Source: Fomitopsis serialis (Eukaryota; Basidiomycota; Agaricomycetes; Polyporales; Fomitopsidaceae). From it: 64,000 nt of DNA. The position numbers were made by a program, and so were the translations under genes. This document shows, piece after piece, positions 17,991 to 54,334 of this stretch. The stretch is from contig NW_025955045.1 of the NCBI RefSeq assembly GCF_022376445.1, positions 1-64,000 on the forward strand. The letters run 5' to 3'. Within the stretch, counting starts at the first letter, position 1, and each line of letters opens with the position of its first letter. The notes under the pieces were generated by a model. The model was given only the letters and a program-made list of their open reading frames with translations. It did not search any database and had not been told where the DNA came from.

Positions 17991-19566
17991 ACAATAGAGC
18001 GGCAGACATCAGGCTGTGAACTCTGCATTAGCACATCTGAGATGTACTGTCATGCATTGGCCTACAACATTCAGCACAATATAATGTCATGGGATCATCT
18101 GATTTTATCTCATTTCCTACCATTTATCTAGCATTGCAGAGACCATCAAAGCATTTGATCACCTATGTGTGGTGTCCCTACTTTATGACATTGCTAGCCT
18201 ATAGACTTTCTAGCAACAGTAGTAGATGCACAACACAACTTGTACAATGTCTTTCTATCACTTTCTAGGATCAGTACAGTGTCATAAAGCTCTGTGAACC
18301 CATAATATTGATAGCTATGCCATTCACATGTGAGACAGAGCCAATATTATGAACATACTCAGCATTAACTGTGGCCTTTGTGCCACAGGTGTTCTTCATT
18401 TTCTGCATATGCCATTGCCTGCCAAAGGGTTTAGACATGAGCCAATCAATACTTATAGCAAGCAGTACAAGGTGAGTGGAATCATACAGAATATTCCCTT
18501 GTTTTATCCGCATTTTCTGAGCCCAGACACAGCAGATAACTCGGACTTTCCATTTTGAGAAGGTCAGGTACCACATATGGCAGGTTTCATTCAGGTCTCA
18601 TATAGCCACACAATCCATAGGCAGTTGGCAAGCATCACAGGAAACACAAAGTGAAAGAACCAGTGTGTACAGAGGAATATGTATTTTATTTTGCTTTGTG
18701 AATGGTGGGTGCCATGTTTATATGAGTCCATGGGAAGGCATACTATGTACAGCCTCTCTGACATCATATACATGACTGGGAATATTCCCAATTGTTTTTG
18801 ATTTTTTGGGAGACCATAGCACAGCAAATACATTGTCACTAATGAGCTTGTGGCTTGCATTCAAACTCAGCCCAATAGCCTGCCTTTGCAGGGCCTATTG
18901 AAGAGTTGAACTGAACAGAATAGCCTAGGATCCTGTCTGGAGCTGCCAGTCCCTGAGAATTCCAGGTGATAATGGTGCTTACAAGATGGACCAAGACTCA
19001 TTGAAAGAGTGGCTTGTATCAGGCTATGCATGGGAAACTCTGCATTATTATGTTTTCTGCCATATGGCCTCAACAGTCAACCCAATACAAATCCATAGTA
19101 CTATCTAATTTTTCTCTTATTTTCCTGCTATTTATCCAGTCCTGCAGAGGCCATGCATGGCCAACTTCCCAAATGGGCAGGGGACTAACCATATATGGCA
19201 GTTTTGTATGTTTGATATCCTCCACCTCACATAGCCCATACATGTGGAACTGTCTTGTACAAGCATCATACACACACCAACATTTGCTTATATCCCCAGT
19301 ATCACTTGCCAAGGTCAGTACTCTGTGAAAAACAACAAGAACACCTAATCTGGGCACCCTTGTCAGTACTCAAGGGGCATTCCATGGAGAAGCAATATTT
19401 TGGGATTTTTCTGCATTTAATGGGGTTTTAGTAAGAGCTCAGTTAGTGTGGCTTGAAGCCATCAAAAAACTCGGCATGAAGAGCTGAGACTGAAAGATTA
19501 CTTTAAAAGGGAACATTTGTCACCATTTCAGCCAATGGGAGTGCTCCAAAATCCCCTTTGAGTGAC

Positions 19567-19610
19567 CGGAGTCGTCAACAGGCCGGAATTCCGGCCTGTC
19601 GACGACTCCG
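19567..19610. repeat. 44-bp near-perfect palindrome in repeat E
   Basis: Arms CGGAGTCGTCAACAGGCCGG and its complement meet at AATT with one mismatch in 22 bp. It is followed by CGCTTCGGCAATGGGCGC and then the small palindrome CGCTTAGTAAGCG. Strikingly GC-rich in AT-rich surroundings. Confidence 0.95.
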
Positions 19611-20699
19611 CTTCGGCAATGGGCGCTTAATCGAGCGCTTAGTAAGCGATGTAAGTGCACACTGTTACTGCAGCACAATTCACTTGTTTTGGGGTCAAGA
19701 AAATGCAGATTAATCAGATAATATTCCAGGATATATGTGGAGCATACCTGAGCATATTTACAAGTGGAGAAGATTCCCTATATAGTCATTCCAGTGCTGA
19801 GACATCAAAACATGCATGTTATTACCATTTTTCCCCACCAATAGCTGTGCTGTGCAACTTCCAGACACATCCATGCATTGTAAACTATGCACATATCTAT
19901 ACAGGTCATAGGCAATGTGTTTCAGAGACAACAAGCCATTCATATCTGCACAGTCACTTGTGATTCTCTAAATGTTGTCCTTTGTTCTTCATTCCTCCAA
20001 TGTATGATTAACCCTTGAAATGATGGGCTATCAAATGAGTTTATCATCTCTATAACCTCTATAAGAGTTGATTAGATTTCAGTCAGTGTATCCCAGTCAA
20101 ATGCCACACAGTCATGCATGTGTTTCTCTGTTTCCTGAATTTCAACCAACTGGGCAAGTCATACTAGTGATATATTGTGGGGGCCTCCATACAAGATGAA
20201 TTGCCTTCATATACAAGGCAATACAGATGAGTCTGATTACACATAATATTCCCTGATTTTATCTGCATTTTGTGAGCCCAGACTGAGCAGGTTAAGCAAA
20301 ATTACCATTTTTGGAAGGTCAGCTACCCTATTTAGCAGGTTTGAGATGTCAGAGAATCTGTGGGCAGCATATAGGCTTCAAAAGAGAGACTATTGAGGTG
20401 AAAAGGGATGCACTCATGTGCACAGAGGCATTTGCATGTTTTTTTGTTTTGTGAATTGTGCCATGACCAGTGAAGGTAATGGGCAAGTCACAGCAGCTAT
20501 AGACTCTATGACATCATACCTATCACAGAGATTATTTTGGGAATTTTCCGCATTTTAGTGGGGCCACAGTACAGCAGGTACAGTGCCACTAAGGAGCCTG
20601 TGGCTGAGATTCAAACTCAGCTCAAAACCTCGCCAGCCTGCCTGATTAGGGCAGAAAAGGGCTTGTTGCACCAATCAGAGCAGCTCGACATCCCTCTCG

Positions 20700-25315: not shown

Positions 25316-26100
25316 GTAGGGCTATGATCATGCTCTTTATAAGAAATCATGGTCCCAGTTGTGTCACTTACTAAGTAGCAATGCATTAAGTTCTCAATGA
25401 AAATGTCCACATCATGGGCTGGTCATGTTCATCCCCCAGCCCTATTTATCATATGTTGGTGAAAAACCTGTGACATAAGGCAGTATTCAGTGATAAGATT
25501 AGTAAATCAACCTAATATGTTCCTCTTCTCTGAGGCTAGTCTATGTGGCAGACTATTCATATTCATTGCACAATGCCACATCTTGCCTGTGTTTCAGTTA
25601 AATTGTTGTCTACCCTGAGTTTCTGCTCAATGTTGACCCACAGTAACATTGGGGTGACCCATTGGGATATGGTGAATTTCAAAAGGCTCTGCCCATGGCA
25701 TCACTATCCCCTCTGTGTTGTGATGTGCATTTGTATATGCAGACTTGCTATCCCCCAAATCTTGTGGTCTCCCCACCTAAGTAGTGATATGTACTGGAAA
25801 TAAAGGTACAGTCACTGTTTATCAGGTTCTTTAATCCTTTGTCACATCTTGGATGGATTTGTCCTATGTTACCTTGCTTTGACCATTCAATTGACCTCTC
25901 TGCTCCATTGTTCTTGCATGTATATAAATTGCTTGCATAACAGCCTACTGCCCTCATGTAGATGCCTCCCATCTAATTGATGTATGTCCTGGCTTGCGTT
26001 GTGATTGACCATGCAGTCAGTGGGGTTGTTCTCAAAGTGGTAGCAGTAGATATGCACCATAAAACTGTCCTGCTTTGCTGCCCCATCATTGGACTGCAGG
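25316..26100. other. AT-rich intergenic, no gene
   Basis: No coding or structured feature identified before the copia scrap at 26119. Confidence 0.5.
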
Positions 26101-26118
26101 CTGTCCAGGACACACTGC

Positions 26119-26206
26119 ATCTGAGGTTTTCCGTACCCGCTACCAGAGCATTATTGGCAGCATCATGTATGCTATGCTCAGTACTCGTCCAGACATTTCT
26201 TTCGCG
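26119..26206 (+). pseudogene. copia RT C-terminal scrap fused to gypsy-1
   Basis: Encodes RYQSIIGSIMYAMLSTRPDI followed by SFAV, the conserved copia block between RT and RNase H. The next residue in the same open frame is gypsy RNase H sequence (CFEAIKALASRAPIL). The junction at about 26206 is therefore a chimera of two retroelement classes. The scrap may derive from copia-C. Confidence 0.75.
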
Positions 26207-28435
26207 GTCAAGTGCTTTGAAGCCATCAAAGCACTCGCCAGTCGCGCACCCATACTCAAGCCCATCGACCCGAAGGTCGATGAGCCCATCTGGGTCATCA
26301 CAGACGCCTCCGTCTTCGGAGTCGGAGCCGTCTATGGTCAAGGACCCGAGTGGCAGACGTGTCGACCTGCAGGGTTCCTATCCAAGAAGTTCTCGAGTGC
26401 GCAACGCGCGTACCATACGTACGAGCAGGAGGCACTCGGAATTATGGAAGCCCTCCTCAAATGGGAGGACAAGCTGCTTGGCCGAAAGGTCAATATTGTC
26501 ACGGACCATAAGGCCCTGACGTTCTTCAACGGCGTCGCCAATCCATCGAACCGGCAGGTTCGATGGTATGAGTACATCTCCCGCTTTGACTGTACGATAT
26601 CATACATCAAAGGCAGTGACAACAAGGTCGCCGACTGTTTGTCAAGGTACTACGAGAACAACACGCCGGACGACGTGATCCCCATTCACCACATGGTGAA
26701 TGCGGACGAACGGCTCGACCCCATGCGAGACGATCTGCCTTCCAATCGCATTCTCGAACTGAGAATGGGACAGATGGCGGCTCAAGGGTTGGACGAGAAG
26801 TGTCACGAACGTGAAGCTGAGGCAGCAGCAATGGCTGCGGCGCAGAACAAGGACATTAGCAATGAAGCTATCGACCTCAGCGACCCGACGGTGGCTGAGG
26901 CATTGACGTCGGGACCACCCTTGCGGACGAAGGTGGAACGAGACGTCGACTTCATCAAGACAGTGAAGTCGGGGTACCGAAATGACCATACGTTTCGTAA
27001 AGTGCTGGAGACTCCCCAGCACTTCAAGACATTCGCAGTGCGCGACGGTCTGATCTACACAAAGAACCGCCAAGGAGTGGAGGTTCTATGTGTACCGAGG
27101 GTGCCGTTGAAACGACGGTCGCTCACTGAGGTAGTGATCGACCACGCACACACCACACTGGGGCACTTCGGGCCGCAGAAAACATCAGAATACATCAGAC
27201 GTTGGTACTGGTGGCCGAGAATAGGTAAGGATGTCGACATGTTCTGCGTAACGTGCGGAACATGTCAGATGGCGAAACCGCGCAACCACCTACAAGCAGG
27301 GTGGTTGCACTCGCTACCAATTCCTACGAGGCCATGGATTTCCATGTCCATGGATTTCGTAGGACCGTTCCCGCAAGTCAATGGGTACGACTACCTGTGG
27401 GTAGTCGTATGCCGCCTCACGTCCATGGTACACCTCATACCTATCAAAACGACGACTACGGCCGCCGAACTCGCTGAACTATACGTTCGCGAGATAGTAC
27501 GACTACATGGACTCCCTGAGTCCATAGTCTCCGACCGAGACACGAAATTCACGTCAAAATTCTGGCGTGAAGTTCATAGGCTCCTAGGAGTGAAGTTACT
27601 CATGTCGACGTCTTTCCATCCTCAGACGGATGGCATGACTGAGCGTGCGATACGTTCGGTATCCCAGATAATGCGGTCAATGGTCTCACCGGACCAACTC
27701 GACTGGGTAGATAGCTTACCCCTCACGGAGTTCGCTATCAACTCAGCATCCAGTGCATCCACTGGATTCGCGCCGTTCAAGTTGAACTACGGGTACATGC
27801 CCCGCATGATGGCCAGATTCTCCACGGACTCCAAGTACTCAGGAGTCCGTGAATTTGCCCAGCGAGCACGGCACTATCTGGAAATGGCACACGACACTCT
27901 AATTGAGAGTTGTGTACACCAAACGTTCCACGCGAACAAACATCGACAAGAGGAACCAGAGTTCCACACAGGATCTCAAGTGTACCTGAGCACGCAGAAC
28001 CTAGCACTACCCAAGGGTCGTGCTCGGAAACTGATGCCCAAATTCATTGGGCCGTATACAGTGACGGCGTGCAATCCAAGCACCTCCAACTATACGTTGG
28101 AGTTGCCGCAGGAATTGAAGGACCGGCGCATACACCCGATGTTCCATGTCTCCTTGCTTAGGAGACATGAACCCAACGATGACGGTCTGTTCCCTAACCG
28201 GGAAGCCAAGTCGTTCTACGACTTCGGCAACGACGACCAGCAGGAATGGCTGGTCGACGATATACTGGGTCATCGATGGGACGGCAACCGTGTCGAATTC
28301 CACGTCCGATGGACGCTCGGCGACACATCCTGGGAGCCGTACGCCCACTGCAAGGACTTAGCGGCACTCGACGAGTACCTCACCTTACATGGCGCCAAAT
28401 CATGGCGAACTCTCCCAAAGAAGAGTCCCAAGTAG
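26207..28435 (+). CDS. gypsy-1 pol: RNase H, integrase, chromodomain
   Basis: An uninterrupted frame that the sequence leaves open from the copia junction to TAG 28433-28435. RNase H: VITDASVFGVGAVYGQG (about 26298), YEQEALGIMEAL with the catalytic Glu (about 26421), NIVTDHKAL (about 26493) and GSDNKVADCLSRYY. Zinc-binding region: HTTLGHFGPQ...CVTCGTCQMAK (about 27151-27276). Integrase core: MDFVGPFP (Asp, 27353), VSDRDTKF (Asp, about 27527) and TDGMTERA (Glu, about 27627). Chromodomain at about 28243-28370: EWLVDDILGHRWDGNRVEFH, then VRWTLGDTSWEPY. A chromodomain would tether integration to modified histones. RT is absent, so the element is not autonomous, but the surviving domains show no stop or frameshift, which suggests a fairly recent truncation. 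Confidence 0.9.
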   Translation, partial: VKCFEAIKALASRAPILKPIDPKVDEPIWVITDASVFGVGAVYGQGPEWQTCRPAGFLSKKFSSAQRAYHTYEQEALGIMEALLKWEDKLLGRKVNIVTDHKALTFFNGVANPSNRQVRWYEYISRFDCTISYIKGSDNKVADCLSRYYENNTPDDVIPIHHMVNADERLDPMRDDLPSNRILELRMGQMAAQGLDEKCHEREAEAAAMAAAQNKDISNEAIDLSDPTVAEALTSGPPLRTKVERDVDFIKTVKSGYRNDHTFRKVLETPQHFKTFAVRDGLIYTKNRQGVEVLCVPRVPLKRRSLTEVVIDHAHTTLGHFGPQKTSEYIRRWYWWPRIGKDVDMFCVTCGTCQMAKPRNHLQAGWLHSLPIPTRPWISMSMDFVGPFPQVNGYDYLWVVVCRLTSMVHLIPIKTTTTAAELAELYVREIVRLHGLPESIVSDRDTKFTSKFWREVHRLLGVKLLMSTSFHPQTDGMTERAIRSVSQIMRSMVSPDQLDWVDSLPLTEFAINSASSASTGFAPFKLNYGYMPRMMARFSTDSKYSGVREFAQRARHYLEMAHDTLIESCVHQTFHANKHRQEEPEFHTGSQVYLSTQNLALPKGRARKLMPKFIGPYTVTACNPSTSNYTLELPQELKDRRIHPMFHVSLLRRHEPNDDGLFPNREAKSFYDFGNDDQQEWLVDDILGHRWDGNRVEFHVRWTLGDTSWEPYAHCKDLAALDEYLTLHGAKSWRTLPKKSPK

Positions 28436-28687
28436 ACGTACCACCACTGCAAAGTGGTGGTGCGCGATGGCCAGGCAGGGCGGCACGACCACCGAGGTGG
28501 TGGTCGTGGCTGCGGCAGCTGGTGGCTGGAGACGCTCGAGGGCGGGACTTCTTACCGGATTGGGCACGGACGCGCTGCTCGGAGTCAGGTGACCGCGGCA
28601 GGCGCCAACAAAGCCACAACTCTTGCTGCCGCCACTCCCCAACTCAAACTACCACCCACCTCACCGCTCACCGCACCTCGCCTCATC

Positions 28688-30911
28688 ATGAGCACCAACA
28701 ACTTCACCGCGCCTCACAACACCACGGACGCACCACCTGACGGTGGTGCGCCCGCACAGACGTCGCCGCCGTCGTCGGCTTTGCCGCTAACGTCGCTGAC
28801 GCTGTCCAAGCTGCACGTTCCCCCGCACCTCGACGAGCCGGTCGTCCTCAGCAATGAGGCGGCTACAATGATGCAGGTCGACCGTAACCGGCCGACCGCA
28901 TCGTCACAGTACCAGTTTGGTACTGCGACCACGAGCAGCCTGCTGCTCGCACCCTCTGGCACCAACTGGGTGCCGTACTTCCCCGTGACGCCGCTGGCAA
29001 CACACCCCACCAGCCTCTGCAGCGTCTGCGAGGCCTTCGTCCACCACCTGCCCCGAGGTGGTGGCGACGCTGAGTACCAGCGCATCACGGAGAGTCTGGC
29101 CGTCCACATGCGGGCGGACGTGGCACACTCTCTGACACAGGAGGGTTGGTTGCAGGGGGGGAGGGACCTGGTCGACGCACTGCGTAACCAGGCGGTCGTC
29201 AACGACCAAATCATCGCGAGACTGCGCGAACAGGTGGAGTACGCCGTGCAGTCCGAGCAGGAGATGCGGCGGCGGCTCGCCGATGAAGAAGCCCGGGTGC
29301 GATGAAGGGACGAGCACACCCGCCGTCTCGTGGACGACATCGAGGACCTCCACGACGACATCGCGTACTACCGCCGACGACTGGACGACCGCCAGCAGTC
29401 GCCAAGCCCCCCTCCGCCGTCGCCAAAGCCCGCAGCGACGAACGAGCCCGCCAAGGAGGCTCGACAGGACAACCAGGCTGCGTCTTCGCAGACGCAGCCC
29501 ACCCCAGCCTTGCCCCCGCAGCCATCGAGGTGGCCAACACCGGAGGCATCTTCGCAGATGCCACCGGCCCAGCCGCACGATCCAATGACCGCGGATTGGG
29601 ACGACTTTCACCCGAGCGACGATGACGACGACGACGACGACGCCGACCGACGCCGACGCCGACGAAGAAAGTCGCCGTCTCAAGAAAGCCGTCGTCAGCC
29701 ATCGCCTGAAGGGCAAGGGCAAGGCGCGGGCGACTAACACCAGTACTCTGGCGAGTACTGGTGCACCACCGGAGGCACCCCCAAACTGGCCGCCTTCCGC
29801 TCCACTCCCCGACAACTCGACCGTCTTGCAGGCGGGCGAGTGGCACAACTACATCCCTCGTAGTTGTGCCGAGGCGGAGATCATCCATCGACGGGCCCTG
29901 GTAGACGAGCAGGCGAGGTTCCGGGTGCAGGACCTCATCCACCAGGCCCAGGTGGACCAGAGGATAGGAGCGGTTGAGGGGCCGCGTTGGCTGATGCAGC
30001 AATGGCAACCCCCCCGTCGGACGCAGGACCAGGAGGTCGGCGACATGGCCCGGGCCATGCAGGAGAGCCGCGAGGAGCATCAACGACGGGCGAACGCACC
30101 GCCAGCCGGAACGGCGGGCGCAGGGCCGTTGGGGAGTCGTACCGCGGCCTCAACGGCAGGACCCTCAGCGGGAATGGCCCCTGCTGCCTCGTCGACGACC
30201 ACGGCGACGTGGTCGAATACGGGAGCGACGTCGAGCAAGCGGCGGGCCAGGTCGCCGGCGGGACGAACGGCCACTGCTCCGCCCAAGAAGAAGTCGAGGG
30301 GCGGGTTGGCCCAGCCGACGAACCAGTCGACGGCACTCGAATGGCGCGAGTGGTACTGCGTCAATCGCGACCGCATACCGCTGGGTATGCGAGTCGACCG
30401 TGGAGGACGGCCGAACATCGACGACGTTGAGGCCCTGCACCTCACGCGCCGATTGGCCCCAACGACAACGCAGTCGTGTCGTCCTTGGGAAGTCGCTACG
30501 GGACGGCTGTTCTCCATCCCGGGCCTGTACCGACGACTGGTACAGGAAGGAGCTTACCCGCTGGGAGCTGGATGGGCTACCGTCGCATTCCCCGCGAGCC
30601 TGGCCGACATCACTATATTTGATGTCGCCCGTTGGTTCTCGCGGATGGGGTACCATCCGGACGAGGTAGGATTCCTCGAGGACTTCTATCGGCGTCGGAG
30701 GAACGAGCACGAGGGCCGGGCAATTGATACTGCGGCGCCGTATGCTACGTACCCGTCCGTAGGGAGCGACGTGGTCCATGAGCATGTCGTCCACATCAAC
30801 GACATGCCCCCCATCCCTGCGAACGTCTACATCCCCACGGATGTAGTCAATGACGTCGAGATGGACGACGACACTCAGGCAAACGACCCGGGTGCGGAGC
30901 GTGACATGTAG
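28688..30911 (+). pseudogene. gypsy-1 additional ORF downstream of pol
   Basis: About 741 codons from ATG 28688 to TAG 30909-30911, with one in-frame TGA (29303-29305, a CGA-to-TGA type change) and one frame slip in the GAC-rich tract near 29620-29660. Layout: Pro/Thr-rich start; ordered block with SNEAATMMQVDRNRP and LCSVCEAFVHHLPRGGGDAE; a long coiled coil (about 29090-29400: LREQVEYAVQSEQEMRRRL, VDDIEDLHDDIAYYRRRL); an acidic/basic low-complexity hinge; a second helical region; a basic nuclear-signal-like patch (KKKSRGGL); and an ordered C-terminal block (LFSIPGLYRRLVQEGAYPLG, DITIFDVARWFSRMGYHP). I know similar uncharacterised multi-copy proteins in Agaricomycetes but no function. Position and strand tie it to the element; no signal peptide or Env feature is visible. 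Confidence 0.65.
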
Positions 30912-31144
30912 CGGCCACTGGCCCGCTACGTATCCAAGGTCGCATAACTCCCTCGAGTTATGCGTGACGACGATGGCGGATGTGCTGCTCACTGACGCGA
31001 CTCGCGAGTCGTTGTCTACAGTACAGTGTTGTCCTCATCGTACCATTTGCTACCACCGTCGGGTCGTCGCATCTCCAATTGTATTTCTATTTTCTATTCT
31101 ACTGTACATTGCTGTGGACCGTGGACGGGTCCAAGGGGGGAGAG
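30912..31144 (+). other. gypsy-1 3' non-coding region and polypurine tract
   Basis: No ORF. It contains the hairpin at 30941-30964, the 14-bp palindrome CGACTCGCGAGTCG (30998-31011), and ends in the plus-strand primer tract AAGGGGGGAGAG just before the LTR. Confidence 0.7.
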
Positions 31145-31347
31145 TGTAACGTGGCTACGTTACATTCACGTAGTTACTAAATTAGGACATATAATGTATC
31201 TACGATTGCGTGCGTAGGCGCCGTCCCTTAAGGACGGCGCCAGCGAGTGTGGGAGTTCGAGCTCCTTTACACTCGTCACCGATACCGCACCACTCTGGAA
31301 TAGAGACTGGGTGCAGCGTATCACGGCGTGAGTAAGGGGGCGTTACA
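31145..31347 (+). repeat. gypsy-1 3' LTR (203 bp)
   Basis: Starts TGTAACGT and ends GCGTTACA. The first 20 bp form a hairpin (TGTAACGT, loop GGCT, ACGTTACA), and a 10-bp-stem hairpin sits at 31217-31241. It abuts copia-A integrase sequence at 31348. Confidence 0.9.
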
Positions 31348-32078
31348 CGCCCGGAGCGAGAGAACAAGACGGTGTGCGAACAGACAAGTAGTTCGCAGTG
31401 ACTAGAAACTCATCCCAGCGATTTGGCGGGGCATTCGCCGCAAGACGCATGGCGCGCGCGCGATCCATCAGTGTGCGGTGAAACCACTCAATGCGCCCGT
31501 TCTGCGCGGACGTATGCGGCGCCGTCGTGCGCCATTGTGAGCCACGACCTTCGATCCAAGTTTTGAAGTCGTTGGACAGGAGCTCGCCATTGTCCACTTG
31601 CACTATGCCGAGATGCTTGCCTGTCTCCACTTCCCGAGCGAGAACCCAAGCCTTGAAACGTTCAAGAATGACTTTCGAGGGCACGGGAATGGCCCAAGTA
31701 TGTGACGTGAAATCATCGAGGATGTTCATAGAATACAGGTTGCCTAACACTGAACGCACATCCTGCTGCCCCTGCACGTCCACAAAAACCGTACCAAGAA
31801 TCCGCTTCGCCTTATCTCCCACCCGCACCTTAGGAACTGCACTTCTCGTCTGCTTGCCGAGAATGCAATGTTCACATTTGGCAGGTGGGGAGAGAATGAT
31901 GGGCATACCTGAAACGGATCTGAGGCGGGCCATGTTGTGGATCGTACGATGGTTGACGTGACCGAGACGACGATGCCAGACGTCGAGTGTTGGCACACGA
32001 CCCGAATAGAGGGCGTGCTCGGTGGAAGGAGGGGCGCCATCGAGAGAGTAGAGGCGCTTGGAGGTCAGCGTGCCGCTA
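31348..32078 (-). pseudogene. copia-A GAG-pre-integrase and integrase core (segment 2)
   Basis: Minus-strand continuation of copia-A beyond Plavaka-L. LTSKRLYSLDGAP leads into TLDVWHRRLGHVNHRTIHNM and CEHCILGK (the zinc-binding GAG-pre-integrase), then the integrase core. The catalytic positions appear in VFVDVQG (first Asp, context altered), VQVDNGELLS (second Asp) and SAQNGRIEWFHRTLMDRA, where the Glu after NGR is present as IEW. The frame is open from about 32040 to the gypsy-1 LTR, which cuts it at SCSLAP. RT and RNase H are lost. The well-preserved reading frame suggests the breaking insertions are fairly recent. Confidence 0.9.
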
Positions 32079-32164
32079 CATCAGCAAACTGGGCAAGTCC
32101 TGACGGTCTGGCCATCTGAGATGCACTGCTCAGAGCACCAGAGCACCTCAGATCTCACACATTA

Positions 32165-32255
32165 TCAGACAAGTTCAGACGAGCTCAGACGAGTTCAGAC
32201 AGCTCAGGTTCAGACAGCTCGGGTTCAGACAGCTCGGGTTCAGACAGTTCGATAC
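32165..32255. repeat. Plavaka-L subterminal GTTCAGACAGCTCGG repeats
   Basis: Four to six degenerate tandem copies of a 15-17 bp TTCAGACAGCTCGG/TCAGACGAG unit near the transposase end of the element. Likely transposase-binding repeats by analogy with CACTA subterminal arrays. The matching array in Plavaka-R is at about 50470-50560. Confidence 0.7.
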
Positions 32256-32280
32256 GAGGCAATGTGAATAATACTTTATA

Positions 32281-35200
32281 CTAGAATATAGATTCATGTG
32301 AATGATAGTCGCTGTAATTATTGACATAGAATGATTCAAAAGCATCAAGGGTATACGAAAAATGGAAGTCAATTGGCATAGAAACATCCCCATATACTGG
32401 CATAAGATGGACAGCACGAAACACACTGTCTAGATGTACAATAGATGATACCTGCTGTCCATTGTCTAGCTCGGGCTGAACAACGTACATACCCGTCACG
32501 TCGTCCGGATCGTCCGAGACCTCGAACCAATCGATCAGTGCGCACGGGTAGCGTTCACCACTGTATGGGATTGTCATCAGCCCCATGACACGGCCGACAG
32601 CCATGCCTTTCATGCTGGGCTCGTCCGCGTCGATGCTGATGAGAACGGTGTCGTAACGAGGGTGGCCGCGCCAAGAATGATTGCATCGAATCAGCTCCCG
32701 GTGCATGCCACGATCACCGGAGAGCTCGCTCGGGGCGAAGAACATTGCATGTGCTGTCCGATACACGGCGATCTTCCCGAGGAATCTTGGACACTCCGAC
32801 AGGTCCACCGTGCTCGAGTCGACTTCGTCCGTAGCATGCAGTTGATCAAATAGGAATCGGCGAACCAAAACCATAAGATCGGGTCGCTGATATTCCGCGG
32901 CGAGGTCCTCAACAGAACGCATATAGACTAGACTCGTGTTTTGAGAAAGAGCTTCTGATTGAATAATTGATACTCACCTTGTCGTGCCGGAAGCTCGACG
33001 ACACCCTCCACATAGCCATTGACATCCATCACCTCATCCTCAGGCTCGTTGTCGTCCGAAAGGAACACGTCTTCCGTTACGAATGGCCCCAAGTTCATTG
33101 CATCTGCGAGGACATCACCGTCAAGCATGTGGCGGTTGGCGAAGATCGACCGTGCGGCACTGAGCTTGTCGAGCCGTTGGTTGGTGCGAAGCATCTCGGG
33201 CAACGGGTTATTCCTACTTGACCGTTGCCACGGCTGCTTGACTGCGCGGATGTGTTTGGACTCGGTGATTGACGAGCAAATGCCATTCGGAGAACCAAAG
33301 AGTCGGATGTTAGCGATGTAGTGGACGAGAGCATGCTGTCGCGGGAGTGAGAAACCCTCGGGGCGTACACCTACGGTCTCGAAGACGACGCGATGTCTGT
33401 GGAAGCGGTCTAATGCCTCTTGCATCTCCGCGAGTGAACTGTCGTCGTGAGTAGATCGTCTTGCTAAGTAACAGAAGTCGAGGTAAGCCGCAAAGCAGCG
33501 AACCATGTCGTCCGGCACGTGCCCCCGTATCGCTGGAAGGTAGACCTGCCACGACGAAACAGAGGTCAGTCTCAATCTTCAATATATTACTTTACTTACT
33601 TTCATTAGCGCCTTCGAGTCGTTCCCAGTCCACTGCTTGAAGTTCCGGCCCTCGGGAAACCGACGAAGCCCCGGAAATTGAGGCGCGGCTGCGATCCTAC
33701 AGGTAAGCAAGTGGCCATCAGTGATTCGATCAATCCACACTGAGAACAGTCTCGCCTGCGATCAATGTCGTCCATTCTTCGACGAGCCTCGGCCTTGGGA
33801 TGCACAAGGTACAGGTACTGCTCCACCCAGTCGACGAGGTGGTCCTTGAATGTCCCCTTGATGAGCTGATGGAGCAGATCGGGGGTAATGAGCTCATAGA
33901 TGTCGGCGCGGGGGAAGTAGGTCGTGAACGGCTGCGAACGAATGCTAGCTGTTATGAAGATAGCGTAGTGTGGGTTGATTCATACTTACAATGATGTTTG
34001 CATCGACTCCCCATGCGACCCAGGCTTCGTCAGCATCGAATGTTCTGATAAGCTCCACGGTGTGCTCGAGACAGCGCGGCTCTCCTCCGGCTTTATGTAG
34101 ATCTTCGGGTGGAAGGAGACATCTGCGAGGGAGTAGTGAGCAATCATACAGCACAGGTGACCGTGTACTTACTTCGGGCACCACCCTGTCACTATGCCTG
34201 CGAGGAGAACTTGCTCGGGATAGTCCGCAATAAACGGCCCGAGCTCGTATATTGTTCGCCGGAAGTGTCCGTCGGGGCAGCGTACAACGTCGTGGGTCTC
34301 CATGTAAGGTCGCAGCGGCGACATGATGTGTGCGATTGAGGCGTGGTACAATTGTTTGCGGAACGTTCGAAACTCATCAGTCTCGGCCTTGCCTCGTGCC
34401 GCTGTGGGGTCATGAATCTCATTAACAAAAGAAGCCAGCGTCGACTCGGAGGTAAACAACGTACCCTTCGGTATCGCTAGGAACGCAATCGGGATGATCG
34501 CGTCCTTGTGAGCGCGCCTGACCGCATTATGTACATTACCGATTGACATGTATAGCGGGTGGAACTCTGAGTTGCCAGTGCCGACAGATACAGTGGTCTT
34601 GTCAGCGCCGAGGATGACAGGTGTCAGCATTGACCCATGAGTTTCCGGATCCTGCGCGATCTTGGTCTGTGAACAGCATGAGTCAGAGCGAGGTTAATGC
34701 ATGAGATACACGCACAGCCTGTCTATACGCCCACTGCCCTGACATCGTGTTCGAGAACGATACTTTACCGGGTGTGATGTACTCCTGATACGGAGTCGTA
34801 TCGAATTGCCCAGTGAAGTCTTCGTTTCCGATCATGTTGTGAGCGACCTGTCGGGAGTTGCGACAGTGGACGACGTATTCGGTGCGCTTCCAGGACGGCG
34901 ACTCCTCGTCGACAGGTCCAGAGTATTGAACAGTGAATGTCGTCCATGGCGCGTCGCCGTACGGAATGGCATCGATCGTCTCGTAGAGCTCTGCAGCATC
35001 CTCGAACGGCGGGTCGCTGCCACCTTGCGTGACATTGTATGCGGCTAGACTCCTCAGTAGGTCGTTGATGTTACCTTGCGATGCTTGTATCTTTTTGAAG
35101 ATGAGTTCGGCGAACTGGAACGCCGGCCGATTCTCAAACGGCGCATATGAGTTGATAGGCTCTGGTTCCGGAGGGGGTGCACCAGGAGGAAGGAAGTGAC

Positions 35201-35417
35201 CTTCCGAGTTGCAAGGTCGGCCTACGTGAGTGAGCTACAGCACAGCGAAAATGAGACAAAAAGACATACCGTTGATATGAGGATGATACCGGAAGGTCAA
35301 CCTCGGTAGGCCAGCCTTGGGGTGCTTGTGTTGACGGGAGTTGTGTACAGCAAAGTTGCGGCGAGAAGGGAAAGATCTGGCACATATTGTGCACCAGTAG
35401 CTGTGGGGTCGAGGCAT
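32281..35417 (-). CDS. Plavaka transposase (intact copy), 8 exons, about 922 aa
   Basis: DDE-type transposase of the Plavaka group (CACTA-related, basidiomycete). My exon model, 5' to 3' on the minus strand: 35417-35270, 35221-34716, 34666-34173, 34122-33990, 33931-33756, 33696-33600, 33545-32978, 32927-32281; all phases agree. The N-terminus has a C2H2 zinc finger ([19 protein letters not shown], residues 7-30). The catalytic Asp candidates are in [11 protein letters not shown] (about residue 240) and [13 protein letters not shown], the Glu in [13 protein letters not shown] (about residue 620). Other family marks are [29 protein letters not shown] followed by [24 protein letters not shown] and [15 protein letters not shown]. 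The fifth intron is GC-AG. It would cut and paste the element in the nucleus. It is divergently transcribed from the accessory gene. Confidence 0.9.
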
Positions 35418-35663
35418 ACTATGTGGATGATACAGTAGAATTGAACGTTAGGGAGTCGCATACACACTGGCAGGCGCGCGCAACAGAGACAAATATCATA
35501 CAAACATTTTGTGTACGTTTTCTTTGCCAACGCATCCCTTCGTGGTACCGTGACACGTCCACCCTCCCCACTTCGGAAACTCCCACCATACATCACTTCC
35601 CATCTGTCCTCTCAGCTCGTACGTAGTCTTCTTTTCTCAGGCCGCAGCTCGCGCAGCGGGGCA
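35418..35663. promoter_or_regulatory. shared intergenic region of the divergent Plavaka-L genes
   Basis: A 246-bp gap between the transposase ATG (minus strand) and the accessory ATG (plus strand), identical in design in Plavaka-R (47062-47307). It must hold both promoters. No confident TATA box or repeat seen. An in-frame upstream Met for the accessory gene exists at 35511, so the gap could be shorter. Confidence 0.6.
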
Positions 35664-38142
35664 ATGGCAGCTTCCCGGGTGGCCAACACGCGGAACTTGA
35701 GGACAAGGACCGTGAATCTTGAGGACACCGATGACAGCGTGGCACCCGTAGCAGCTCCTGTGGCCAGTCCATCAGCAGAAGAAGCAGGGAACAATTCGAC
35801 AGAGGAAACGGACGTTACCGTTGAGCCGCCACGCCGGTATGCAACTCGACGCACGAACAATCCGCATCCTGCCCTGTCGGCAGGACTCAGCAAGCGAACG
35901 GGCGCCGAGGTACGGGAGGAGGTGCAGAAGAAGAGAGATGAAAGGGAGTTGGATTTGCAGCGCAGGGAAGCTGAACTTGAGCAGCGAGAGCTCGAGGTAG
36001 AGCGGAAGTCACAATCCTTTGCCAGTGTTGAGCGAAAACTGAAGTCGCGTCGAGACGAGGACACCATGGAGCGCATCTTCGACGACGAAGATGCTGATAT
36101 GGAAGATCTAGCACAAGGTGAGTGACGTATCTGCAATTCTAGATTGTAATGAACTCACTGTCTTGGTAGGCGAAGGCGCGGTGGACGCTGGCTCCAAGTC
36201 CGATGTCGAGAACGATGAAGATTACCAGCCGCAGAGTGATCCTGGCGATGCATCTGACGCATCTCGGCCTATGCAGTCGGAAGATTTGGAAGACTCTGGT
36301 GGTGACGATGAAGCTGTTGCTGGTACCAAGAGGAAGGCTGGTAAATCGACCAAGGTGAGCAGTGCTATATCACCGGGTCTTGTAGTACTGCACGCACCTG
36401 AGTATTCACAACTACCTCCCTTACCCGGCCCAGAAGCGCACTGCGAAGAAGAAGAAAACCACACAGGAGCGTAGGAAGGAGATCTTGGGCGAAGTAGAGA
36501 GAGCAAAGGCGATACAGGCAGGGGAGGACAAGGACGAGGAGGAGGAGGAGGCCGCACGGTGCGCTCGTGCTCGTGTGATAAGATCGGGAGATGATCTAAC
36601 ACGCGTTATCACCGCAGACCGAAGGCAAGGCCCAAATCGACGACCAACAAATCGACGACCAAGCCCTCCTCCTCATCGAAATCTGCATCCAAGCCTGTAT
36701 CCAAGTCCGCGCCTAAGTCCACGACAACCACAAACCGAGCCACGACCTCCAAGAAGACCTCCGACCTTCCATCTCTATCGCTTGATCTTCCGAATACCAT
36801 GGGCTTGAAGGCGGACTGGAAGAACGCTGTCGCCTCACGTCGCTCACAGACTCCCAAGTCGCAGGCCAGCTCTTCTGCGACATCGGCATCCCCTGCGACA
36901 TCGTCTAGTCAGCGAGGTACACCGACCCCTAGGCTCTCCGCTGCAGCTCACCGTGCAGGCAACGCCAAACGCACCCGGTGTCAAGACTCCATCGAGCTCA
37001 TCGGAGGATTCACCGACAGCGACATCACTGTCGGCATGGGATCAGCGAAGGGCGGCTACGGACAGCTCGTGCAGGTCACTCAGAAGGCGAAGGGAGGTGA
37101 TGATGAGCAGTTGGAGGGGAGTATGAAGAAGAAGCGGCGCGCAAAGAGTGTTGTGCCGAACGAGAAGTCGCTCTCGGTTCAAGCCTTACCGGCCTTCATC
37201 CAACCACACTGGAAGAGTACGTTTGTTCCTACAATGCTCCAACTGATCGGCGAAAGCGAGAATCCCTGGGTGTTCGCAAGCGGCAAGAATACTGCTGAAG
37301 AAAACCTCCTCATCGATGTCGTGCAGCGTCTGGTAGACGGATTTTGGCCGGAGGAAGGGTATGTTGTTGATGGGATGGACAAGATCTATCGTATTGTGAG
37401 TCCATCGCATCAGTATATGTTCTATGTTCTAACCAATTGTACAGGCACGCCAAGCCGTGAATGACTGGCGCGCTCGCTTTGTCTCTCGGATCAAGACATT
37501 TGTGAAGAACGAGTTCGTCAACACATATGGCTCAGCTGCGAAGATCGCAGCCTATGTGAACGGTGCATCCGGGCGAAGCCAAGGGCTTGCATTCTGGGCT
37601 GTTTACGATTCCGAGGTGAGTCTTCCTTCAATTCACATTCACAGTGGCTTTACCTGGGTGCATTACCACAGCTCGAGCGTCCTCTCGGGGCTCTCCAGTC
37701 CGCCTACGTTCTCAAGTCATTCGCGACACATCTGGCTGCCATACAAGGAAGCCGCATCAAAGAGACCGATACGAAGCCGGCACGCGGCGCACTCGCACTC
37801 GCAGCCACTGCGGTGAGTGCTCTTGTGTCGTGTGATTCGTTTGTGTATTGACAATCACTGCAGGTGCAGTTTGTGTTTGCGGCCTGGACGACTGGGCGAT
37901 ACAACACCAATCTCGTCTTCAGTGGCGAGCGCTATCGCAGCGTCACAACCTATTGGCACGACAAGTCCGTCGCGAAGATCATCGAGCGTCGCCGATTCGA
38001 TAAGTATGTAGATATGGCAATTCCGTACATCGAGGCTACAGGGGCGCCGCGTGTTGTGGACGACGAGGACGACATTACCGTTTGTGATCCGAGTAGTCCA
38101 GTGCAGTCTGATGGCGAGGATGACACGTTCGGTAGAGGTTGA
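35664..38142 (+). CDS. Plavaka accessory protein (intact copy), 7 exons, about 710 aa
   Basis: Exon model: 35664-36117, 36170-36354, 36434-36558, 36618-37395, 37445-37615, 37672-37812, 37864-38142, together 2133 nt with consistent phases. It is disordered and highly charged over the first about 300 residues: a coiled coil (EVREEVQKKRDERELDLQRR, ELEQRELEVERKSQSF), acidic patches (EDEEEE-like), a basic KRTAKKKKTTQERRK stretch, then a Ser/Lys/Thr-rich linker. The ordered C-terminal half (from MGLKADWKNAVASRR) contains DSIELIGGFTDSDI, LSVQALPAFIQPHWKSTFVP and GALALAATAVQFVFAAWTTG. Similar hypothetical proteins are common in Agaricomycetes. Its role in the element is inferred only from being the constant divergent partner of the transposase, perhaps comparable to second proteins of plant CACTA elements. 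Start at 35664 is my choice. Confidence 0.75.
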
Positions 38143-38239
38143 CATAGTATTACATCGCTTATGTTTTGTACGACTTAACCCAGCTTTCAACAGCTGGTGT
38201 TACGATAATTGCTATTTTCGGTACTCATCTACTGGTAGC

Positions 38240-38248
38240 TGACGAAAT
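38240..38248. repeat. 9-bp target site duplication, left (TGACGAAAT)
   Basis: TGACGAAAT at 38240-38248 and again at 39687-39695, flanking the foldback element. The same site occurs once, uninterrupted, in Plavaka-R (around 44499-44507), which proves the empty site. Confidence 0.95.
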
Positions 38249-38493
38249 CAGTGATGTCAGTTAAAGTGGATTAACAAGGGTACTTAGAAGTACCTTAGGT
38301 CAGATTAACTTGGTACACTAATGTACTTCCTAATCTGTGATCCAGTATTGATCCAGGATTAGCAAATTGGATTTAGAGGATTAGAGTTTGGATCAGTGTC
38401 ATTAATCCTGGGCTAATCTGGGTGGATTAATACCAGCTAATCTGATTAGGCTACTGGATTAACTGATGATTTAAAGTGGATTAAGAAAATAAA

Positions 38494-38591
38494 TGGCACC
38501 AGCCAGGATTGAACCCCTGACCTCATGAAATATTACATAATCACCTATTTGAGTCAGACTCTCTGCACTCTAACCACTTCACCATATGGTT
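38494..38591 (-). ncRNA. tRNA-like sequence in left foldback arm
   Basis: Mirror copy of 39346-39443: A-box-like (complement at 38574-38584) and B-box GGTTCAATCC (complement at 38506-38515). Probably a tRNA-derived, SINE-like fragment; not a functional tRNA. Confidence 0.5.
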
Positions 38592-39345
38592 GTTATAAAC
38601 CTAGAAACACAATGCTATATGATACATTCTCTGAATACTGGACTTAGACATATTCTGGCCCTCTGTTACTGTGCTCTGCACATACCTGGTTAATCTGCAG
38701 ATTAGTACTGGATTAACACAAGCTGATCTTTCTGGATTAGTGGTGCTAATCCTCAGTCCCATCTGGTCTTAGATCAGCTGTGTTGCTGCATGGATTAACA
38801 AAGTTAATCCAAAGTTAATCCAGTGGATCAGAGCATACTGATCCAAATCTCAGTGATGGATTAGTGTACTCTAAATCTGATCTCAAAACTGGCTTAAGTG
38901 TAGATAGATCATGGATCAATACATTCTAATCCTGATCTCAGAATTGGATTTAAAACTGGATTAACTGTACTAATCCAAATCTCTAATCCAAGATTACACT
39001 CACAGTTAATCCAATTCTGAGACCAGGATTTATCTACACTTAAGCCAGTTTTGAGATCAGATTTAGAGTACACTAATCCATCACTGAGATTTGGATCAGT
39101 ATGCTCTGATCCACTGGATTAACTTTGGATTAACTTTGTTAATCCATGCAGCAACACAGCTGATCTAAGACCAGATGGGACTGAGGATTAGCACCACTAA
39201 TCCAGAAAGATCAGCTTGTGTTAATCCAGTACTAATCTGCAGATTAACCAGGTATGTGCAGAGCACAGTAACAGAGGGCCAGAATATGTCTAAGTCCAGT
39301 ATTCAGAGAATGTATCATATAGCATTGTGTTTCTAGGTTTATAAC

Positions 39346-39443
39346 AACCATATGGTGAAGTGGTTAGAGTGCAGAGAGTCTGACTCAAATAGGTGATTAT
39401 GTAATATTTCATGAGGTCAGGGGTTCAATCCTGGCTGGTGCCA
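39346..39443 (+). ncRNA. tRNA-like sequence with A and B boxes in right foldback arm
   Basis: TGGTGAAGTGG (39353-39363) fits the tRNA A-box and GGTTCAATCC (39422-39431) the B-box, about 60 bp apart, followed by CTGGCTGGTGCC, which looks like a T-arm and acceptor end. D-stem pairing is poor and no convincing anticodon arm forms, so this is a tRNA-derived relic or an internal Pol III promoter rather than a tRNA gene. Confidence 0.55.
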
Positions 39444-39879
39444 TTTATTTTCTTAATCCACTTTAAATCATCAGTTAATCCAGTAGCCTAATCAGATTAG
39501 CTGGTATTAATCCACCCAGATTAGCCCAGGATTAATGACACTGATCCAAACTCTAATCCTCTAAATCCAATTTGCTAATCCTGGATCAATACTGGATCAC
39601 AGATTAGGAAGTACATTAGTGTACCAAGTTAATCTGACCTAAGGTACTTCTAAGTACCCTTGTTAATCCACTTTAACTGACAAAGATGACGAAATGCATT
39701 CTGGTCTTCTGAATGATCTGGTCTTCTGAACGAGATCGTGTCTGTGACTCTGTGGCGATTTATGCACTGAGTATTCCTGAGGAGCTGACGAGCTCTGAGC
39801 TGCCCTGAGCCATCTGAAGATGTCTCTCTGAGGGATGTTTTTGTAAAAAAATTGAGGTCTTGACACCTGAAGTTCTGAG

Positions 39880-39960
39880 CCTTTCTGACGTCTTCTGAGC
39901 CTTTCTGACGTCTTCTGAGCCTTTCTGAAGGTCTCTGACGTCCCTGACGAGGCCGTCAGA
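39880..39960. repeat. Plavaka-L subterminal 20-bp repeats
   Basis: Three tandem copies of a 20-bp unit, GAGCCTTTCTGACGTCTTCT; Plavaka-R has two (about 44280-44330). They lie at the accessory-gene end. Confidence 0.8.
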
Positions 39961-39981
39961 GACTTTCACAAGAGCCTGATG

Positions 39982-44230: not shown

Positions 44231-44603
44231 CATCAGGCTCTTGTGAAAAGTCTCTGACGGCCTCGTCAGGGACGTCAGAGACCTTCAGAAAGGCTCAGAA
44301 GACGTCAGAAAGGCTCAGAACTTCAGGTGTCAAGACCTCGATTTTTTTACAAAAACATCCCTCAGAGAGACATCTTCAGATGGCTCAGGGCAGCTCAGAG
44401 CTCGTCAGCTCCTCAGGAATACTCAGTGCATAAATCGCCACAGAGTCACAGACACGATCTCGTTCAGAAGACCAGATCATTCAGAAGACCAGAATGCATT
44501 TCGTCAGCTACCAGTAGATGAGTACCGAAAATAGCAATTATCGTAACACCAGCTGTTGAAAGCTGGGTTAAGTCGTACAAAACATAAGCGATGTAATACT
44601 ATG

Positions 44604-47061: not shown

Positions 47062-47307
47062 TGCCCCGCTGCGCGAGCTGCGGCCTGAGAAAAGAAGACT
47101 ACGTACGAGCTGAGAGGACAGATGGGAAGTGATGTATGGTGGGAGTTTCCGAAGTGGGGAGGGTGGACGTGTCACGGTACCACGAAGGGATGCGTTGGCA
47201 AAGAAAACGTACACAAAATGTTTGTATGATATTTGTCTCTGTTGCGCGCGCCTGCCAGTGTGTATGCGACTCCCTAACGTTCAATTCTACTGTATCATCC
47301 ACATAGT

Positions 47308-50300: not shown

Positions 50301-50443
50301 GTGTTCGTGCTGTCCATATTATGCCAGTATATGGGGATGTTTCTATGCCAATTGACTTCCATTTTTCGTATACCCTTGATGCTTTTGAATCATTCTATGT
50401 CAATAATTACAGCGACTATCATTCACATGAATCTATATTCTAG
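47308..50443 (+). pseudogene. Plavaka transposase, right copy, one late frameshift
   Basis: Same eight-exon structure: 47308-47455, 47504-48009, 48059-48552, 48603-48735, 48794-48969, 49029-49125, 49180-49747, 49798 to about 50443. The zinc finger, both Asp motifs, the Glu motif and the GC-AG intron (48970-49028) are all preserved. In the last exon TTT is reduced to TT near 50303, so the final about 45 residues are replaced by an unrelated tail running to 50549 in the shifted frame. Nearby, two CpG transitions change DDPDDV to DDLDDM. All catalytic residues lie before the slip, so if the base is truly missing the protein might still be partly functional. Confidence 0.8.
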
Positions 50444-50645
50444 TATAAAGTATTATTCACATTGCCTCGTATCGAACTGTCTGAACCCGAGCTGTCTGAA
50501 CCCGAGCTGTCTGAACCTGAGCTGTCTGAACTCGTCTGAGCTCGTCTGAACTTGTCTGATAATGTGTGAGATCTGAGGTGCTCTGGTGCTCTGAGCAGTG
50601 CATCTCAGATGGCCAGACCGTCAGGACTTGCCCAGTTTGCTGATG

Positions 50646-54287: not shown

Positions 54288-54334
54288 CTAGGGAGGACAA
54301 GGAAGCGAGGAGGAGTACGGTAGTAGCTGAGCAA

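Follow-up and report, generated by a model that had tools for sequence, protein, structure and literature searches.

Pervasive short hairpins in a Ty3/gypsy LTR retrotransposon of Fomitopsis serialis

What could fill a retrotransposon, coding sequence included, with short perfect hairpins? The question was raised by a first-pass annotation of 64,000 nucleotides of genomic DNA from Fomitopsis serialis (this whole stretch is referred to as the window), in which the Ty3/gypsy element gypsy-1 was described as saturated with such structures.

Layout of the element and density of its hairpins

At 26209-31347, the window copy of gypsy-1 comprises the 3' half of a Ty3/gypsy element that is ~10 kb long, and its 5' end is joined to copia sequence at about 26208/26209. 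Six other genomic copies, belonging to family A (98% identical) and family B (85% identical), give alignments to the window that start at 26209 and end at 31342-31356. The main features are as follows, with the coordinates of the pol domains derived from residue numbers:

26209-31347, + strand: gypsy-1, Ty3/gypsy, family A, 5'-truncated copy (genomic-copy alignment)
26209-28435, + strand: 3' part of pol, open frame (Pfam, ORF)
about 26279-26587, + strand: RNase H of pol (Pfam)
27116-27283, + strand: integrase H2C2 of pol (Pfam)
27329-27622, + strand: rve of pol (Pfam)
27971-28168, + strand: SH3 Tf2-1 of pol (Pfam)
28250-28378, + strand: weak chromodomain of pol (Pfam)
28436-30911, + strand: third-ORF region downstream of pol, frame interrupted in the window copy (ORF)
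28436-29305, 29306-29737 and 29589-30911, + strand: third-ORF pieces in the window copy (ORF)
31145-31347, + strand: 3' LTR, 203 bp, TG...CA (match to both LTRs of two B copies)
52488-61142, - strand: gypsy-2, a chromodomain-bearing Ty3 element without hairpin excess, used as negative control

The full pol of a B copy contains, in order, RVT_1, RT_RNaseH, Integrase_H2C2, rve and SH3_Tf2-1, and the window copy starts in RNase H. Reverse transcriptase, RNase H and integrase in that order, together with Ty3-type relatives, place the element in Ty3/gypsy. A PF00385 chromodomain match was obtained for the window copy with E 0.0024 and 18.2 bits (cut-off 25.1), and was not listed for the B copy. Judged by its sequence, gypsy-1 is an LTR retrotransposon of the Ty3/gypsy group and a putative chromovirus, with a chromodomain match below cut-off. 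The third ORF, open over 768 codons in the B copy L023, matched no Pfam family above cut-off, and none of 8000 scored candidates reached E 0.001 as a homologue. The 3' LTR, the ends of which were read directly, opens with the hairpin at 31145-31164 and ends in CGTTACA; in two B copies the LTRs are 201 and 203 nt long, with the 5' and 3' LTR sequences equal within each copy. In the window copy the 3' LTR alone remains, and no 5' LTR was detected in the stretch upstream of the A copy C718 (L036). The window contained no Rfam match at gathering and no tRNA.

Hairpins were defined as perfect stems of at least 8 bp with loops of 3-10 nt, and an exact scan of the 64-kb window gave 44 of them, 30 of which lie at 26211-31241; the remaining ~58.9 kb contain 14. 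The first-pass annotation had counted 24 in 26263-31241, where the exact scan found 29, so that the claim was not only borne out but strengthened; the two palindromes and the nested hairpin that it had reported were all present. The 30 hairpins of the scan are listed with these (stem in bp, loop in nt; remarks on B and C refer to the corresponding copies of those families):

26211-26235, + strand: stem 10, loop 5
26263-26282, + strand: stem 8, loop 4; B arms identical
26543-26566, + strand: stem 10, loop 4; B arms identical
26683-26702, + strand: stem 8, loop 4; B arms identical
26947-26971, + strand: stem 8, loop 9; B arms identical
27000-27024, + strand: stem 9, loop 7; 7/9 pairs in B
27282-27308, + strand: stem 9, loop 9; B identical; in C one co-changed pair and one A-C
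27322-27364, + strand: nested hairpin
27386-27409, + strand: stem 10, loop 4; B arms identical
27507-27525, + strand: stem 8, loop 3; B arms identical
27748-27767, + strand: stem 8, loop 4; B has one G-U
27823-27851, + strand: stem 10, loop 9; B identical; in C both arms changed, 9/10 pairs kept
28145-28169, + strand: stem 10, loop 5
28234-28256, + strand: stem 8, loop 7; B arms identical
28440-28461, + strand: stem 9, loop 4, directly 3' of the pol stop
28484-28508, + strand: stem 10, loop 5
28729-28750, + strand: stem 9, loop 4
28907-28925, + strand: stem 8, loop 3
29041-29064, + strand: stem 9, loop 6; B does not form it
29476-29499, + strand: stem 10, loop 4
29738-29763, + strand: stem 11, loop 4
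29842-29870, + strand: stem 11, loop 7
30044-30059, no strand: perfect palindrome, 16 bp
30196-30215, + strand: stem 8, loop 4
30372-30391, + strand: stem 8, loop 4
30524-30546, + strand: stem 8, loop 7
30605-30627, + strand: stem 8, loop 7
30782-30807, + strand: stem 9, loop 8
30827-30846, + strand: stem 8, loop 4
30941-30964, + strand: stem 10, loop 4, non-coding
30998-31011, no strand: perfect palindrome, 14 bp, non-coding
31145-31164, + strand: stem 8, loop 4, LTR start
31217-31241, + strand: stem 10, loop 5, inside the LTR

Dinucleotide shuffles of 26209-31348 yielded a mean of 0.76 hairpins and a maximum of 3 (n=100). Synonymous-codon shuffles, the check proposed by the first-pass annotation, did not reproduce the count either, with 0.53 (maximum 3, n=200) compared to the 13 observed in the pol part (26204-28432), and the ORF at 29589-30908 contained 8 hairpins against 0.59 in shuffles. 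When stems of at least 7 bp were included, 38 were observed and 2.7 expected from shuffles. Over the element as a whole, other copies included, hairpins occur in the 5' part, gag, pol, the third ORF, non-coding DNA and the LTR, at a density of approximately one perfect hairpin of 7-10 bp per 130-140 nt with weaker folding between them. The excess is limited to loops shorter than about 20 nt, a loop of 4 being most frequent, and no stem extends beyond 11-12 bp.

As had been claimed, the structure ends at the element borders, with folding z below -2 in 17 of 25 200-nt windows inside the element and in 1 of 26 flanking ones. That the neighbours are free of hairpins proved correct for gypsy-2 (1 hairpin with a stem of at least 8 bp, 1.5 expected), but the copia side at 31349-41500 was mildly enriched, with 5 hairpins against 1.2 in its own shuffles; four of these five are mirror pairs within a 660-nt palindrome. 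Inserted hairpin elements (MITE-like or mitochondrial) were considered and rejected, as the 13 pol hairpins align to B and C without insertion except for single-base gaps and the stems differ in sequence.

Related copies and conservation of the stems

The hairpin property is not confined to gypsy-1 as first described: the six other A and B copies have a density equal to that of the window copy, and families C and D are intermediate. The three D and five C copies contain far fewer perfect hairpins in the same RNAi-proficient host, and the other Ty3 elements have none, which indicates that elements can persist there without the folding. No relatives with DNA elsewhere were found in viral_contigs. 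Three distant loci (33-37%) occur in prokaryote-labelled contigs, with a slight excess of hairpins of at least 8 bp (observed/expected 2/0.6, 2/0.4 and 4/0.6).

Stems were identical in B for 35 of 55 hairpins defined in A, and in A for 30 of 55 defined in B, and none of the 13 pol hairpins of the window copy was perfect in C. The pairings are thus conserved from A to B and mostly replaced from A to C. For stems of at least 8 bp, divergence from A to B amounted to 22/698 (3.2%), compared to 985/7225 (13.6%) elsewhere, and in the direction B to A the values were 41/714 (5.7%) and 966/7209 (13.4%). Third codon positions of pol differed between A and B at 10/100 sites in stems, 13/29 in loops and 193/601 elsewhere, and 4-fold sites at 6/46 in stems against 104/276; p values for these third-position and 4-fold contrasts were 1.4e-6, 8e-5 and 7e-4. 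Outside the perfect hairpins, predicted-paired third positions also diverged less than unpaired ones (Mantel-Haenszel odds ratio 0.46, stratified by base, p 9e-7). Co-changed pairs between A and B numbered 3/454 and 6/462, so covariation was not above chance. Purifying selection maintains the stems, at synonymous as well as at non-coding sites. Selection for RNA structure, which the first-pass annotation had listed as a cause beside template-switch correction and a mutational process peculiar to the lineage, is supported by the conservation between A and B of synonymous sites in stems but not in loops, and of paired third positions.

The A copy L019 displayed no stem depletion among its own changes (21/552 in stems against 151/4321). 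Nearly all of the changes private to L019 lie within its divergent 5' piece. A W-specific test with p 0.0024 (W, A20 and A21 pooled, A19 left out) was dropped; with A19 the counts were 28/2918 and 294/22147.

Folding strength and possible causes

The predicted folding energy exceeded that of synonymous shuffles by 27% in pol of the window copy, 26.5% in B pol, 17-21% in C, 17% in D and 13.5% in the B third ORF; the corresponding values were about 2% for gypsy-2 and 29-31% for MS2 rep, MS2 mat and Qbeta rep. MFED reached 19.5-25.1% over the element and 31-32% in pol, with about 25% for whole A and B stretches, and calibration on the leviphages MS2, Qbeta, PP7 and AP205 gave 23-29% for the sense and 22-26% for the antisense strand. 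Family C had a higher antisense (25-26%) than sense (20%) MFED, and over the families the comparison of strands was mixed. Hairpins with one mismatch carried G-U and A-C in numbers of 6 and 12 in A, 9 and 7 in B, 19 and 12 in C, 15 and 42 in three closely related D copies taken together, and 18 and 19 in the leviphages. An absent G-U preference had been considered as a sign of a DNA-level or mutational cause, but the test does not discriminate, since leviphages lack the preference too; because their RNA genomes have the same strand symmetry, that symmetry does not point to DNA. With G-U not preferred over A-C, sequence alone does not single out RNA from single-stranded DNA. No RNA tetraloop or loop motif was evident in the hairpin listing.

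Composition, codon usage or chance is a practically negligible explanation. The coding sequence is G+C-rich (0.60), and the preferred register, in which codon position 3 pairs with position 1 (30 of 61 hairpins in pol, counted over both directions), is favoured by codon usage, but the synonymous and dinucleotide shuffles rule this explanation out, and gypsy-2 and the flanks contradict it as well. A mutational origin would require intramolecular template switching during reverse transcription to perfect quasi-palindromes and keep correcting them without selection for structure. Strictly Watson-Crick, strand-symmetric, short-looped hairpins in a reverse-transcribed element agree with such a process, as do the near-perfect stems of 9-14 bp with one mismatch in family C (transition type in 18 of 31), which resemble decay of once-perfect hairpins, and the clustering of some A-B differences in one arm. 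Correction should, however, transfer a change to the opposite arm roughly as frequently as it reverses it. Among pairs free to vary on both sides, co-changes amounted to 4/68 at 3-3 pairs and 2/92 at non-coding pairs, and 53 and 79 pairs, respectively, had not changed (the counts pool the two directions, and shared hairpins enter them twice). In 11 of 17 pol hairpins the differences from C affect both arms, conservation extends to weakly paired third positions beyond the perfect hairpins, and gypsy-2 has the same kind of enzyme without the hairpins. The scarcity of co-changes at free pairs and the changes in both arms of most hairpins speak against template-switch correction as the main cause, an idea of the first-pass annotation that we now consider unlikely.

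What is selected could instead lie at the DNA level and not in RNA, either as hairpins of the single-stranded minus-strand cDNA or as cruciforms of the integrated copy. The missing G-U preference and the equal structuring of both strands would fit, but the same symmetry in the RNA genomes of leviphages, whose cycle lacks a DNA stage, makes this fit uninformative, and we regard the proposal as improbable. Each hairpin might also be a binding site for the element's Gag, serving as a dispersed packaging signal, as the spread of hairpins over the whole element and the conserved stems would allow. The loop-closing side is C-rich, with C at positions -1 and -2 of the 5' arm in 33/71 and 36/71, but the enrichment at -2, -5 and -8 follows the codon period and may be explained by codon usage; moreover, the loops are without consensus and diverge at 13/29 third positions, leaving Gag binding quite improbable.

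The explanation we favour, with a probability of roughly 0.6, is that gypsy-1, an LTR retrotransposon, evolved pervasive short-range self-complementarity along its whole sequence, as strong as that of leviphage RNA genomes. It is very probable that the pervasive structure was selected, and RNA is probably the selected molecule. Selection would act on the element in its single-stranded form, as genomic or messenger RNA and perhaps as the complement too. Fast self-folding strands would anneal poorly with their complement, so that little dsRNA would form; folded strands would be poorly accessible to RNA-dependent RNA polymerase, Argonaute-guided cleavage and Dicer, and helices of at most 11-12 bp would be below Dicer substrate length. 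The host has RdRP, Piwi (Argonaute) and Dicer-dimer domain matches above cut-off, and leviphage folding is rationalised as protection against bacterial dsRNA nucleases. Of the uses that the folding may have, a shield against dsRNA formation and RNAi would be the likeliest, as is tentatively suggested by the anatomy, the host RNAi genes and the leviphage and GORS precedents. More speculatively, strict Watson-Crick, strand-symmetric hairpins of 7-11 bp may keep RNA and complement folded as a sequence-encoded shield, a passive, coding-embedded counter-RNAi that leviphages would have reached independently. With structured families A and B, intermediate C and D and unstructured gypsy-2, one host with RNAi genes offers a natural comparison for the purpose of genome-wide folding, in which small RNAs, transcript levels and copy numbers are directly comparable.

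Comparison with known systems

Among fungal Ty3/gypsy chromoviruses, those of Trametes and Phanerochaete, compared by protein, share Gag with zinc knuckle, protease, reverse transcriptase, RNase H and integrase with the element, and their pol is at most 67% identical over 89%. The genomic RNAs of yeast Ty3 and Ty1 likewise are LTR retrotransposon RNAs with structured stretches, but they are A-rich mosaics of stable and dynamic regions with lowSS of up to 30%, and the available part of that study does not report perfect-hairpin saturation (PMC11381356). The statement of the first-pass annotation that no retrotransposon had been described with this property was not contradicted by searches of open-licence PMC papers.

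GORS-type viral structure, as presented in part of PMC7642675, has in common with gypsy-1 that it is spread over the genome, that paired sites are less variable and that pairings turn over at larger distance; host and element type differ, and here the pairings persist from A to B. The MFED values given there are 7.5-10.7% for HCV, 12.5% for pegivirus, about 15% for SARS-CoV-2 and a maximum of 23.4% among vertebrate viruses (PMC7642675, in part), and the pol MFED of the element lies above these, under a slightly different window scheme.

The leviphage RNA genomes (MS2, Qbeta, PP7, AP205) resemble the element in MFED (23-29%, beside 31-32% in pol and ~25% for whole A and B stretches), in short local hairpins running through coding sequence, in the structuring of both strands and in the lack of a G-U preference. 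Unlike the element, which integrates as DNA, they are RNA-only viruses, and at similar MFED the element has about three times their density of perfect stems of at least 7 bp (61 such stems per 7981 nt, and 39 per 15640 nt over the four leviphages), which makes for a different style of folding. Pervasive structure is known from RNA viruses; here it is predicted, with the strength seen in leviphages, for an LTR retrotransposon. As an LTR retrotransposon known from sequence alone, gypsy-1 would work like the pervasively structured RNA genomes without being a member of that group.

Hairpin density in gypsy-1 and its relatives

The scanned host assembly comprises 66.2 Mb in 806 contigs, and the following features of the window (C791:1-64000) are considered:

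26209-31347 (+): gypsy-1, the 3' half of a Ty3/gypsy element, with copia sequence fused at its left side
52488-61142 (-): gypsy-2, a chromodomain-bearing Ty3 element
32079-39966 and 44247-50645: large inverted duplication around copia-type sequences, several blocks 97-100% identical
38255-38914 and 39023-39682: perfect inverted repeat of 660 nt, 108-nt spacer
63792-63836 and 19578-19599: 20-bp perfect hairpin and related 9-bp hairpin

The large duplication is either recent or an assembly artefact. The 20-bp and 9-bp hairpins sit inside inverted repeats that recur at 19405-19763 and 63639-63998 and may represent a small DNA element.

An exact scan of the window located 30 perfect hairpins (stem 8-11 bp, loop 3-10 nt) at 26211-31241, compared to 14 across the remaining ~58.9 kb. 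The first-pass annotation had described gypsy-1 as saturated with short perfect hairpins, which is borne out by a mean of only 0.76 (maximum 3) in 100 dinucleotide shuffles of the whole stretch; nor did 200 synonymous codon shuffles reproduce the 13 hairpins of pol (mean 0.53, maximum 3). The hairpins are located in pol, the third ORF, non-coding stretches and the LTR, as originally noted, and, across the family, in gag as well. Non-overlapping stems of at least 7 bp number 71 in one copy of family A, analysed separately as two neighbouring stretches, and 69 in a B copy, with 4 nt as the most frequent loop (27 and 31, respectively), an approximately flat stem-length distribution from 7 to 10 bp and a ceiling at 11-12 bp. 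The excess fades at loops above about 20 nt.

The domains of gypsy-1 are RNase H, integrase H2C2, rve and SH3 Tf2-1 (a chromodomain match is sub-threshold), followed by a 203-bp 3' LTR. The family B copy on contig C12 has two LTRs, identical across 203 nt, a total length of ~10.04 kb by arithmetic from the LTR positions, and encodes full pol and, by weak matches, a zinc-knuckle Gag and a protease. Named protein relatives of pol, among the best 120 of 656 matches, belong to Trametes, Phanerochaete, Phlebia and Mycena, which makes a polypore-like basidiomycete the probable host. Families A-D and window positions 52488-54287 (-) carry a third ORF downstream of integrase without a Pfam family above cut-off; a homologue search with the family B ORF gave no match, and the corresponding region of gypsy-1 has no known relatives. 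Unassigned ORFs also lie 3' of integrase in gypsy-2. A single 790-codon open frame (26063-28435) runs from a copia reverse transcriptase end (…RPDISFAV, by eye) into the gypsy RNase H; the switch at about 26208/26209 is either a copia::gypsy junction that keeps the frame or a join made during assembly.

Six further copies (family A on C25, C158 and C718; family B, 85% identical to gypsy-1, on C805, C374 and C12) hold 28-44 stems of at least 8 bp per ~9-10-kb stretch, flanks included, while five stretches of family C hold 8-10 and three family D copies 6-7. Observed/expected pol stems of at least 8 bp were 13/0.3 in gypsy-1, 20/0.3 in A, 21/0.4 in B, 3/0.4 and 3/0.5 in two C copies, 3/0.4-0.5 in D, and 2/0.4, 2/0.2, 0/0.8 and 1/0.4 in the comparison families E, F, G and H. 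The MFED of pol ranks the families as hairpin density does (A and B 31-32%, C 20%, D 17-18%, E-H 4-10%); additional stretches gave 5.8 and 7.2% (two H-type) and 15.4% (a C-like fragment). The reported lack of hairpins in gypsy-2 was confirmed (0/0.4; MFED 1.4%). For the flanking copia sequence the same claim held in folding energy, with no excess at 31349-36500 (-1.7%), but not in perfect stems, which are in mild excess (5 vs 1.2 in shuffles).

Dicer and Piwi matches are paired near-identically across contigs (e.g. C71/C152, C57/C91, C223/C278); the assembly probably holds two haplotypes, and copy numbers may thus be inflated. Three Ty3-like pol loci (L046-L048) lie within contigs labelled bacterial MAGs, which are probably eukaryotic contamination. 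In the family C locus L028 (1-8551), a single mismatch interrupts 31 of the 33 long stems (9-14 bp). In 18 of them it is of the transition type, a pattern resembling the decay of hairpins that had been perfect.

Conservation of stems

To judge from the substitution pattern, the stems are kept by selection, beyond their mere origin. Divergence between A and B is ~13.6% outside stems, compared to 3.2% in A-defined stems of at least 8 bp and 5.7% in B-defined ones; counting sites perfect in either copy, 89/1199 stem and 845/6488 non-stem sites changed. Among pol third codon positions, 10/100 changed in stems, 13/29 in loops and 193/601 elsewhere (Fisher p 1.4e-6; stem vs loop 8e-5), and at 4-fold sites 6/46 in stems vs 104/276 (p 7e-4). 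Outside perfect stems of at least 6 bp, third positions predicted to be paired changed at 80/314 and 54/384 (two pieces), and unpaired ones at 59/152 and 60/210 (base-stratified odds ratio 0.46, p 9e-7).

Changes private to gypsy-1 are sparse in stems (4/610 vs 92/4452 outside, p 0.007) and in pol mostly synonymous (26 vs 12 nonsynonymous; crude dN/dS 0.18), which indicates a lineage still replicating under selection. Stem depletion was absent in the family A copy A19 (21/552 vs 151/4321). C>T/G>A changes at CpG make up 49 of the 96 listed gypsy-1-private changes, which suggests methylation-driven decay.

Arm-to-arm correction by template switching, a cause proposed in the first-pass annotation, is not supported as the main origin of the hairpins: it predicts frequent two-sided changes, but these are scarce at pairs free of protein constraint, where 53 of 68 third-to-third codon pairs were unchanged and 4 co-changed, and 79 of 92 non-coding pairs were unchanged and 2 co-changed (both directions pooled). 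Co-changed pairs overall were at about chance level (3/454 and 6/462), so positive covariation was not seen between A and B either. None of the 13 gypsy-1 pol hairpins is perfect in family C; a few hairpins still pair there despite alteration of both arms (e.g. 27823, 9/10 pairs).

Strand symmetry and a possible protective role

Among one-mismatch hairpins, G-U had no edge over A-C in A (6 vs 12), B (9 vs 7) or C (19 vs 12), and D favoured A-C (15 vs 42, three related copies). Antisense folding nearly matches sense folding, falling below it in A, B and D and exceeding it in C. Strand symmetry was considered as evidence away from RNA and dropped, since the RNA genomes of four leviphages, run with the same code, were equally symmetric (18 G-U vs 19 A-C; MFED 22.7-29.3% sense, 22.2-26.3% antisense). 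Such symmetry thus fits selection acting on RNA but does not distinguish RNA from single-stranded DNA.

Leviphage folding prevents annealing of plus and minus strands. A strand quickly folded into many short helices would anneal slowly with its complement and be a difficult template and target; with a maximum length of 11-12 bp, the helices would not themselves be Dicer substrates. We infer that the hairpins may protect the element in these ways, which would account for the structure on both strands, the limit on stem length, the presence of hairpins in coding and non-coding sequence alike and the conservation of stems and not loops. The host has domain matches to RdRP (39), Piwi (34) and Dicer-dimer (8). 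In Cryptococcus, RNAi is described as acting on transposons via RdRP and Dicer.

Comparison with known systems

No description of a retrotransposon saturated with such hairpins was found in the open-licence PMC literature; the RNA structure of yeast Ty3 is described as a mosaic (PMC11381356). The closest named phenomenon is GORS in RNA viruses, for which the literature gives a threshold of 3% (PMC3950689) and values of 7.5-10.7% for HCV, 12.5% for a pegivirus, ~15% for SARS-CoV-2 and, as the highest among viruses of vertebrates, 23.4%, with paired sites varying less and pairings turning over (PMC7642675). The folding-energy excess over synonymous shuffles was 27.1% in gypsy-1 pol (z -9.3) and 26.5% in family B pol (z -15.6), with 1.8 and 2.1% in gypsy-2, and 29.2% in MS2 rep, 30.2% in MS2 mat and 31.4% in Qbeta rep. 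As far as the searched literature extends, such pervasive folding is known for RNA genomes and new for an LTR retrotransposon.
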